From Oryzisolibacter propanilivorax (lineage in GTDB: Bacteria; Pseudomonadota; Gammaproteobacteria; Burkholderiales; Burkholderiaceae_C), in contig NZ_FNHP01000001.1 of assembly GCF_900103645.1 (NCBI RefSeq), forward strand, positions 496,001 to 560,000: a stretch of DNA of 64,000 nt, in the 5' to 3' direction. Positions 55,480 to 58,441 of this stretch are shown one piece after another. Below the pieces are notes generated by a model, which saw nothing but the letters and a program-made list of their open reading frames with translations, had not been told where the DNA came from and did not search any database. The position numbers were made by a program, and so were the translations under genes. How positions within the stretch are numbered: position 1 is the first letter of the stretch; every line of letters starts with the position of its first letter.

Positions 55480-57399
<1,920 letters not shown>

Positions 57400-57466
57400 G
57401 GGGTCAGGTCCTTGTCGGAAGCGGTGCGGCGGTGGGTCGGGTCGTGCACAGGGGCACCGAAAAAGC

Positions 57467-57495
57467 AAAAAGCGCGGAACAAGGTCCGCGCTTTT
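57467..57495 (-). terminator. thrS leader terminator (attenuator stem)
   Basis: On the minus strand AAAAGCGCGGA (57485-57495 side) pairs with TCCGCGCTTTT (57468-57478 side) around a six-base loop, followed by TTGCTTTTT. It is a strong intrinsic terminator placed 68 bases before the thrS start, inside its leader rather than after a gene. Confidence 0.85.
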
Positions 57496-57547
57496 CAGAA
57501 GAGGGAAAGAAGCCAGGTCTTTCGTACGGGCGCGAACGGCCAGCCGG

Positions 57548-57589
57548 TCAGCGGCTGGTGGGGGTCTCCGGGGTAGTTCGCGGTGTCAT
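57548..57589 (-). CDS. Threonine-rich leader peptide of thrS (candidate)
   Basis: A 13-codon [16 protein letters not shown] then stop, with five threonine codons (positions 2, 5, 6, 9, 11). It lies between a TACAAT box and the attenuator stem. The ribosome site GAAAGG (57601-57606) is eleven bases from the ATG, rather far. The last codons (CCAGCCG, 57552-57558) can pair with CGGCTGG (57540-57546), and GTTCGCGC (57530-57537) can pair with GCGCGGAC of the terminator stem (57484-57491). This is the layout expected for ribosome-mediated attenuation sensing charged tRNA-Thr. Not confirmed by comparison. Confidence 0.6.
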
Positions 57590-57637
57590 AACCGAAAGTG
57601 CCTTTCTCGCTCTTGCAGGGTATTGCCAAAACGCGCG

Positions 57638-57643
57638 ATTGTA
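57638..57643 (-). promoter_or_regulatory. Putative -10 box of thrS leader transcript
   Basis: TACAAT on the minus strand, predicting a transcript start near 57631 and a leader of about 230 nt. The -35 region is weak by sequence. Confidence 0.45.
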
Positions 57644-57721
57644 CCGGCTGCGCGCGGCGCAGGGTGCTTCCGGTCCCCCGCGCGACAATCGCCGCCGACC
57701 CAGTCACGCATAAGACAGGCC

Positions 57722-58441
57722 ATGCACGAACCCATTCTTACGATCGAAGAACGCGAGGCGATCAATTCCGGTCGCTGGTTTTCCTCTCTGTCGCCCTCGT
57801 TGCGGCACGACATATTGCGATGTTCCTACGTCAAGCGTTTCAAAGATGGCGCGCTGATCGCGGCGCGCGGCGACCCACCCGAGGAATGGATCGCCTGCGC
57901 ACGCGGCGCGGTGCGGGTCAGCTCGACCTCGATCTCGGGCAAGCAGATCACGCTGACCTATGTCGAGCCGGGCATCTGGTTCGGCGACGTGGCGTTCTTC
58001 GACGGCGAGCGGCGCACGCACGATGCCTATGCACATGGCGAGACCACCACCCTGTGCGTGGCGCGCGGCGACTTCAAGAAGATCCTGGCGCAGCACGCCG
58101 AGCTGTACGAAGCGCTCTTGCGCCTGCACGCGCGGCGCATCCGCCAGCTGTTCGGGCTGGTCGAGGACCTGAACACCCTGCCCCTGCGCGCGCGCCTGGC
58201 CAAGCAGCTGCTACACCTGGTGCGCAGCTACGGCGTGCCGCACCTGGCCAACGGCGACGAGACACGCATCAGCCTGCAGCTAGCGCAGGAAGAACTCGCG
58301 CAGCTGCTGGGCGCATCGCGCCAGCGCGTGAACCAGGAGCTCAAAGGCATGGAGCGCGAGGGCACGATCCGCATCGAGCCGGCCGGGCTGGTGGTCTGCG
58401 ACCGCCAAGCGCTGCTGCGCACGGCCGATGCCGGGCTATGA
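57722..58441 (+). CDS. Crp/Fnr-family transcriptional regulator
   Basis: A 239-residue regulator with an N-terminal cyclic-nucleotide-binding-like barrel (about residues 20-140, including GKQITLTYVEPGIWFGDVAFFDGERRTHDA as a region) and a C-terminal Crp-type helix-turn-helix (ISLQLAQEELAQLLGASRQRVNQELKGMEREG). No N-terminal Cys cluster, so it is not an Fnr oxygen sensor. The cAMP pocket Arg-Thr/Ser pair is not evident, so the effector is unknown. ATG at 57722 follows GACAGG. It is divergent from thrS and closed by its own terminator. Confidence 0.92.
   Translation: MHEPILTIEEREAINSGRWFSSLSPSLRHDILRCSYVKRFKDGALIAARGDPPEEWIACARGAVRVSSTSISGKQITLTYVEPGIWFGDVAFFDGERRTHDAYAHGETTTLCVARGDFKKILAQHAELYEALLRLHARRIRQLFGLVEDLNTLPLRARLAKQLLHLVRSYGVPHLANGDETRISLQLAQEELAQLLGASRQRVNQELKGMEREGTIRIEPAGLVVCDRQALLRTADAGL

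Follow-up and report, generated by a model that had tools for sequence, protein, structure and literature searches.

The thrS locus and its leader

The window analysed here, a stretch of 64,000 nucleotides of the Oryzisolibacter propanilivorax genome, carries on its minus strand thrS, coding for threonyl-tRNA synthetase (ThrRS), with infC, rpmI and rplT downstream of it; all four genes are confirmed by NCBIfam. The next gene upstream of thrS lies on the opposite strand (57722-58441, plus) and encodes a CRP-like regulator combining the Pfam domains cNMP_binding and HTH_Crp_2. It is divergent from thrS, and the two genes have a short intergenic region in common. Upstream of thrS the following features can be recognized, and are given with the evidence on which each rests:

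55480..57399, minus strand: thrS, threonyl-tRNA synthetase, the gene proposed to be regulated (ATG at 57399; named by NCBIfam)
57638..57643, minus strand: -10-like box TACAAT, 54 bases before the start of the leader ORF (sequence)
57601..57608, minus strand: Shine-Dalgarno block GAGAAAGG of the leader ORF (nearly invariant in an alignment of 31 sequences)
57576..57592, minus strand: 17-nucleotide block GTTATGACACCGCGAAC, start region of the leader ORF (exact-match genome scan)
57548..57589, minus strand: leader ORF (conserved ORF, in-frame excess of Thr codons)
57576..57582, minus strand: segment 1, CGCGAAC, in the Pro-Arg-Thr codons (codons 3-5) (minimum-energy fold, alignment)
57552..57558, minus strand: 5' arm of the inner (early) stem, CCAGCCG, in the last codons of the ORF (covariation in 67 leaders)
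57540..57546, minus strand: 3' arm of the inner stem, CGGCTGG, the loop holding the stop codon (alignment of 67 leaders)
57530..57537, minus strand: segment 2, GTTCGCGC, just after the stop codon (pairs with segment 1 or segment 3)
57484..57491, minus strand: segment 3, GCGCGGAC, 5' arm of the terminator and partner of segment 2 (alignment)
57466..57497, minus strand: intrinsic terminator hairpin (segments 3:4) of 13 pairs (T-rich tail to about 57461)

Across 1401 bases, both strands included, there are 3 terminator-like sites against a shuffle mean of 1.0, and the hairpin before thrS is the one with the most pairs. An intrinsic terminator thus precedes the structural gene, as attenuation demands. 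The first-pass annotation of this DNA had placed a strong terminator 68 bases before thrS; the hairpin stands, and the distance from its end to the thrS ATG is corrected to 66 bases.

Phyletic spread of the leader

Starting from 60 relatives, in 59 of which thrS was matched, we fetched and inspected the DNA upstream of the gene. A leader beginning MTPRT precedes thrS in 30 of the 35 loci from the window's own family, and a relaxed pattern matches 2 of the 24 thrS loci of other families, one of these two reading MTPLT. A sequence model of the leader start spanning 52 positions (R1) matches 235 of 299 genomes of the family, thrS itself being found in 288 of the same 299. A weak match to R1 can be due to chance, as in a genome counted among the 235 (G194) whose thrS locus (L160) has no such leader. 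Of 20 loci picked for weak matches 17 show MTPRT and two are variants, one with MTART (L162) and one with a GTG start (L170), leaving L160 as the one with none. At L170, upstream of thrS, the 17-nucleotide block is intact but for the GTG start (GTGACACCGCGAAC), and the frame reads MTPRTQIATVTGP. A second R1 match in the window's own genome (E-value 1.6e-4) was rejected as chance: it covers only positions 5-32 of the model, matches of equal score occur in three other genomes, and around it there is no Rfam match and no such leader ORF.

An exact-pattern scan of named genomes returned at least 117 stretches, and the genera among the 80 matches listed include Acidovorax, Comamonas, Delftia, Variovorax, Hydrogenophaga, Rhodoferax, Massilia, Duganella, Herbaspirillum and Undibacterium. 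thrS follows 123-269 bases downstream on the same strand in 115 of 117 named contigs (of at least 117), the other two ending too early. When R1 was run on 250 genomes of the order, 30 were matched, some of them weakly. From these we fetched 18 loci, leaving out three weak ones (G408, G490, G515), and all 18, weak matches from five further families included, stand before thrS. A class-wide draw of 369 genomes gave 3 matches, all in the window's own family. The leader therefore seems to belong to a single order, being frequent in some families there while most of the others did not show it.

The leaders used below come from a set of 250 (133 + 117), reduced to 234 on removal of duplicates and short ones, and to 230 once four without a recognisable terminator arm were left out. 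As all of them were found by motif, their agreement within the 17-nucleotide block is by construction; for this reason the conservation of the block rests on the thrS-anchored loci of the family and on a genome scan with the 17-mer. At 9 of 10 loci scanned in other families (L036, L038, L043, L047, L316, L319, L321, L326 and L219; absent at L315) there is a tRNA-Val gene with anticodon GAC a short distance upstream of thrS, with the terminator, and sometimes a leader ORF, between the two genes.

The leader ORF and its threonine codons

The leader ORF of the window (ATG ACA CCG CGA ACT ACC CCG GAG ACC CCC ACC AGC CGC TGA) begins MTPRTT and has threonine at 5 of its 13 residues. Of the ATG-started frames of 10-16 codons in the window, 120 over both strands when each nested start is taken separately, it is the sole one with at least 5 Thr. 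Across the 230 leaders, codons 6-9 are ACN at 398 of 920 positions in frame, as against 8/920 and 28/920 in the other two frames. The codons used for threonine at position 6 vary freely (ACG 61, ACA 57, ACC 47, ACT 20). Because R1 spans codon 6 and two bases of codon 7, the in-frame test was redone on 99 leaders recovered with a pattern extending no further than base 14 of the ORF, giving 166 ACN of 396 in frame against 4 and 11. Over codons 8-13 of all leaders the count is 193 of 1313 in frame, against 30 and 40 out of frame. To judge from these codons, the leader peptide is selected for threonine, the amino acid being held while the third base drifts. The leader thus displays an excess of codons for the very amino acid handled by the product of the downstream gene. 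This ORF (minus strand, 57589-57548) bears out the Thr-rich frame that the first-pass annotation had reported before thrS (five Thr of 13), and the in-frame excess of ACN provides the conservation of Thr codons in close relatives that it had proposed as a check.

Beyond its start the ORF is variable in sequence and runs to 10-29 codons. Two threonines are all that is found in 15 of the 230 leaders, and likewise in MTPRTRNFPEARR and MTPRTCFFLR from other families. M-T-P-R-T, on the other hand, is constant in amino acids and in codons, which is largely a product of the way in which leaders were selected. A constant amino acid sequence might mean that the leader peptide itself acts in trans and that the attenuator is secondary, and such an action has been reported for peTrpL (PMC7298713). 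Given that the codons are as constant as the amino acids, and that the rest of the peptide differs so widely in length and sequence, we give this explanation hardly any credence.

A putative promoter

Between -75 and -30, 156 of the 233 leaders have a box of the form TAnA[AC]T, at a median of -50 from the leader ATG (standard deviation 3.8), where shuffled upstream DNA would yield 10.5. As the -10-like box is so far above the shuffled expectation, the transcript probably starts upstream of the ORF, in the window perhaps at about 57625-57632. A sigma-70 scan requiring both hexamers found no -35/-10 pair at the window's leader. The first-pass annotation had held that a transcript start downstream of the ORF would speak against attenuation; the box lies upstream instead, and the Shine-Dalgarno block and the ORF that follow it are conserved.

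Alternative RNA pairings

The leader of the window folds better than its shuffles, 5 of 200 of which do as well (z -2.4). In the minimum-energy fold CGCGAAC pairs with GTTCGCG, enclosing the early stem CCAGCCG/CGGCTGG and leaving the terminator intact. By computation, segment 1, inside the ORF, can pair with segment 2, segment 2 with segment 3, and segment 3 with segment 4, and these 1:2, 2:3 and 3:4 pairings are exclusive in the manner of an attenuator.

We aligned 67 of the 73 leaders of the GTTCGCGC group, omitting L034, L041, L134, L159, L220 and L225 for unusual spacing or sequence. In this alignment 95.2% of the cells of the named structure are paired; column shuffles reach 90.9%, and sliding leaves at most 46.4%. 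None of 500 column shuffles was as good on four of five measures, and one of 500 on the fifth. Changes on both sides are seen in seven pairs: the inner stem contributes five (5 of 5 counted pairs, with 86.5% of cells paired), the terminator, whose inner pair covaries like the inner stem, two, and 1:2 none. All seven pairs of 1:2 are kept in all 67 leaders, invariant and without covariation. The antiterminator 2:3, GTTCGCGC with GCGCGGAC, has 95.7% of its cells paired and at most 50.3% when slid by 1-3 columns; covariation sought in it across the 67 leaders was not found, the pairing being nearly invariant, and column shuffles do as well. This invariance of segments 1 and 2 and most of segment 3 within the group counts against the attenuator reading. 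So does the fact that pairings in single leaders seldom go beyond a shuffled spacer, with p<=0.05 for 2:3 in 19 and for 1:2 in 43 of 133 leaders. Across groups, the terminator arm does vary in step with its partner: in a reduced set of 151 leaders, relatedness not being corrected for, a leader's own arm fits its spacer better than permuted arms do, with a mean score of 18.2 (17.1 when permuted) that none of 1000 permutations equalled.

RNAalifold, given no preset structure, arrives at these three helices too, with minor deviations. It also draws GGU:ACC around the start codon, a helix that we do not claim because it is invariant in the alignment and its left arm is lost where GC precedes the block. 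The early stem and the antiterminator with its one G-U pair had both been proposed by the first-pass annotation; both are present, and the stems are kept in close relatives, where it had suggested looking for them, the early stem with covariation. Its account of the switch needs amending in that the early stem alone is no competitor of the antiterminator: it is CGCGAAC:GTTCGCG, not listed earlier, that competes.

A helix between the Shine-Dalgarno block and pyrimidine-rich RNA before the terminator, attractive in single folds, was discarded as a general property: it hardly exceeds shuffled spacers, its mean z being 0.25, and p<=0.05 is reached in 23 of 230 leaders. A weaker extension, in which the variable bases before the start pair just after segment 2 (CTTTCG:CGAAAG in the window), has modest support, with 1 of 1000 permutations as good (n 193), and stands outside the attenuator claim. 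In an Oxalobacteraceae-like group segment 2 differs, reading TAGTCG. In L219, L228, L299 and similar leaders of this group, TAGTCG contains the stop codon or sits directly behind it; what follows in this group is frequently T-rich, as in CTTTTTCGTC.

A terminator-like hairpin is present in 133 of 133 leaders; for four, in which the search chose another hairpin, the GCGCGG arm served as the new anchor. The hairpin can also persist where the ORF is absent. Among 20 loci of the family that lack a match to R1 (L171-L190), none has MTPRT, and a terminator-like hairpin remains before thrS in at least 14, this being a lower bound as the pattern apparently overlooked hairpins at L177 and L189. In 11 of the 20 a -10-like box, by a loose pattern, lies at most 70 bases upstream of the hairpin. 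Hence the hairpin may act without a leader peptide. This persistence could suit an ordinary terminator, of leader or of upstream transcripts, accompanied by a short ORF that is translated and unregulated, thrS being reached by constant partial read-through; in other families such a terminator could serve to end the transcript of the upstream tRNA-Val gene (9 of 10 loci scanned). In the window, however, -10-like box, ORF and terminator form a tight cluster, and their upstream neighbour is a gene of the opposite strand. As the Thr codons are also conserved, and the alternative pairing and the predicted switch both exceed their controls, we judge an ordinary terminator to be very improbable.

A predicted attenuation switch

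The switch was examined by computing how far the 5' arm of the terminator is bound to upstream RNA with the start of the ORF masked, as by a stalled ribosome, and with it free. The masked-minus-free difference averages 0.373, compared with 0.044 for shuffled spacers, and is above 0.2 in 151 of 230 leaders as against 220 of 1150 shuffles. The absolute masked value (0.89, with 0.77 for shuffles) says less, since a GC-rich arm finds pairing partners easily in any case. Mean binding of the arm is 0.89 with the ribosome stalled, 0.67 with the ribosome at the stop codon and 0.52 in free RNA. With the ribosome at the stop codon the arm is thus still often predicted to be bound upstream, which counts against the attenuator reading and means that release of the ribosome has to be assumed: the model would need either release and re-formation of 1:2, or a terminating ribosome that masks segment 2. 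In the window's own leader the arm is bound at 0.73 when free, 1.00 when stalled and 1.00 with the ribosome at the stop. With so much binding already in the free state, the switch is predicted to be weaker in the window's leader than in many of its relatives.

The conserved ORF, its Thr codons, the pairing potential, the terminator and the -10-like box support the reading of the leader as an attenuator, and from them we infer the transcript start, stalling, release, read-through and response to threonine. Taken together, they make it highly probable that the leader is a ribosome-mediated transcription attenuator of thrS, which most likely would raise threonyl-tRNA synthetase when charged threonine tRNA runs low. 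In this scheme, RNA polymerase would start upstream of the leader ORF and a ribosome would begin on MTPRTT. Should charged threonine tRNA be scarce, the ribosome would stall on the Thr codons at positions 2, 5, 6 and later, covering segment 1; segment 2 would then pair with segment 3, the terminator would be blocked and thrS transcribed, and infC-rpmI-rplT with it if they are on the same transcript. With threonine tRNA charged, the ribosome would reach the stop codon in the inner stem and leave, whereupon 1:2 and 3:4 would pair and transcription would stop.

The constant block at the start of the ORF

The block GTTATGACACCGCGAAC (-3 to +14; GTT ATG ACA CCG CGA AC) occurs exactly in 45 of 399 genomes of the order, in eight families (f1 10, f3 1, f8 11, f10 2, f32 3, f35 6, f39 5, f47 7), and the reversed 17-mer gave no match among the matches listed for the same 399. 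thrS is downstream in all 40 inspected of these 45 genomes. The block is identical across the eight families, synonymous positions included, even where few Thr codons follow. Pairing of segment 1 accounts for CGCGAAC in the window's group, but not for GTTATGACA, and it fails to explain why the same block is present in families whose segment 2 differs. Likewise, a plain sensor of a run of threonines leaves both the leaders with two Thr and the identity of the block at synonymous sites unexplained.

Several codons of the block are rare in eight genes of the window, ACA and ACT each making up 6 of 118 Thr codons, while CGA occurs once among 217 codons for Arg. The tRNA-Thr genes found have the anticodons UGU (one) and CGU (one), with 24 of 30 tRNA loci scanned and 46 tRNA matches in the genome. 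Attenuator theory (PMC1183508) puts the weight on how selectively isoacceptors are charged, and not on rarity itself. We tentatively consider the block as a possible second, sequence-specific element, either a slow spot sensing tRNA-Thr(UGU) or an RNA site for ThrRS, while regarding its absence as the likelier case. If there is such an element, one leader would combine two forms of feedback.

The further proposal that ThrRS, and not a stalled ribosome, does the sensing, by binding the 17-nucleotide block so that leader translation or folding and termination follow the level of ThrRS, would account for the identity of the block at synonymous third bases in eight families, which neither the peptide nor the Thr codons alone would need. 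It would also suit the leaders with only two Thr and the ORF-less loci that keep the hairpin (14/20) and the -10-like box (11/20, loose pattern). Yet the in-frame excess of Thr and the free choice among Thr codons downstream of the block point to decoding, and in the window the block lies 190 bases from the thrS start and not over the thrS ribosome site. We consider sensing by ThrRS in place of the ribosome unlikely, and ribosome-mediated attenuation is retained as the preferred reading.

Comparison with known systems

At the gathering score, a scan with Rfam found no family on the leader and only three tRNAs in the whole window. The T-box and Thr_leader covariance models gave no match, in the window at the gathering score or in the leader at E<=5. 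Three Rfam matches in the leader, with E-values of 0.2-2 and far below the gathering score, are taken as chance.

Two ways of controlling thrS are familiar from other bacteria. In Escherichia coli the gene is under translational self-repression, with ThrRS binding tRNAThr-like arms of the leader at the thrS ribosome site; in Firmicutes it is under T-box control, in which tRNA is bound without any ORF, and the leader described here has no T-box match in Rfam. The leader of the thr operon (Thr_leader of Rfam) resembles the thrS leader in its Thr codons and in attenuation, but controls threonine biosynthesis, and it too has no match here. PheM is the leader peptide of the pheST attenuator, and Vecchione and Sello (2010) reportedly dealt with trpS by experiment.

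As a mode of control, attenuation at synthetase genes is not new, given pheST and the predicted cases of trpS, leuS, cysS and thrS of Streptomyces lividans. pheST is described in PMC1262725 as under classical leader-peptide attenuation in gamma-proteobacteria; like the thrS leader it governs a synthetase operon, but it senses Phe. The same source gives predicted leader-peptide attenuators of trpS and leuS in Streptomyces, again synthetase genes, but for other amino acids and in Actinobacteria. The uORFC-8-2 motif before cysS in Rhodobacterales, predicted in PMC8632094 to work by ribosome-mediated attenuation, also belongs to Proteobacteria; it differs in having two codons for Cys, as a rule the 14th and 15th of the ORF, and in being alpha-proteobacterial. 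thrL of Streptomyces lividans is a predicted leader peptide that likewise stands before thrS, but it is the leaderless MKRVRPFLETTPGFVPAR with two Thr, from Actinobacteria, and PMC8079986 describes termination as unclear. In Anabaena a second thrS is under zinc control (PMC4787780). In the open-access literature we found no such thrS leader in Burkholderiales, and an earlier prediction elsewhere is possible. The term thrS has 0 occurrences in the searchable text of Naville and Gautheret (2010).

The first-pass annotation had suggested attenuation as a different mode of control for thrS. Its attenuation logic gains support from the conserved Thr codons, the stems and the -10-like box upstream, while the mode itself is known at other synthetase genes: the type of switch is a known one, and it is the gene that is unexpected for it in these bacteria. 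The leader is a short, easily overlooked ORF within a compact putative attenuator, and its constant five-codon start raises the question of what else is sensed. Beside the solutions of E. coli and of the Firmicutes it would be a third way of controlling thrS, present in several families of a single order and unmatched in Rfam, and it would illustrate how the control of one essential enzyme has been rebuilt in different lineages.
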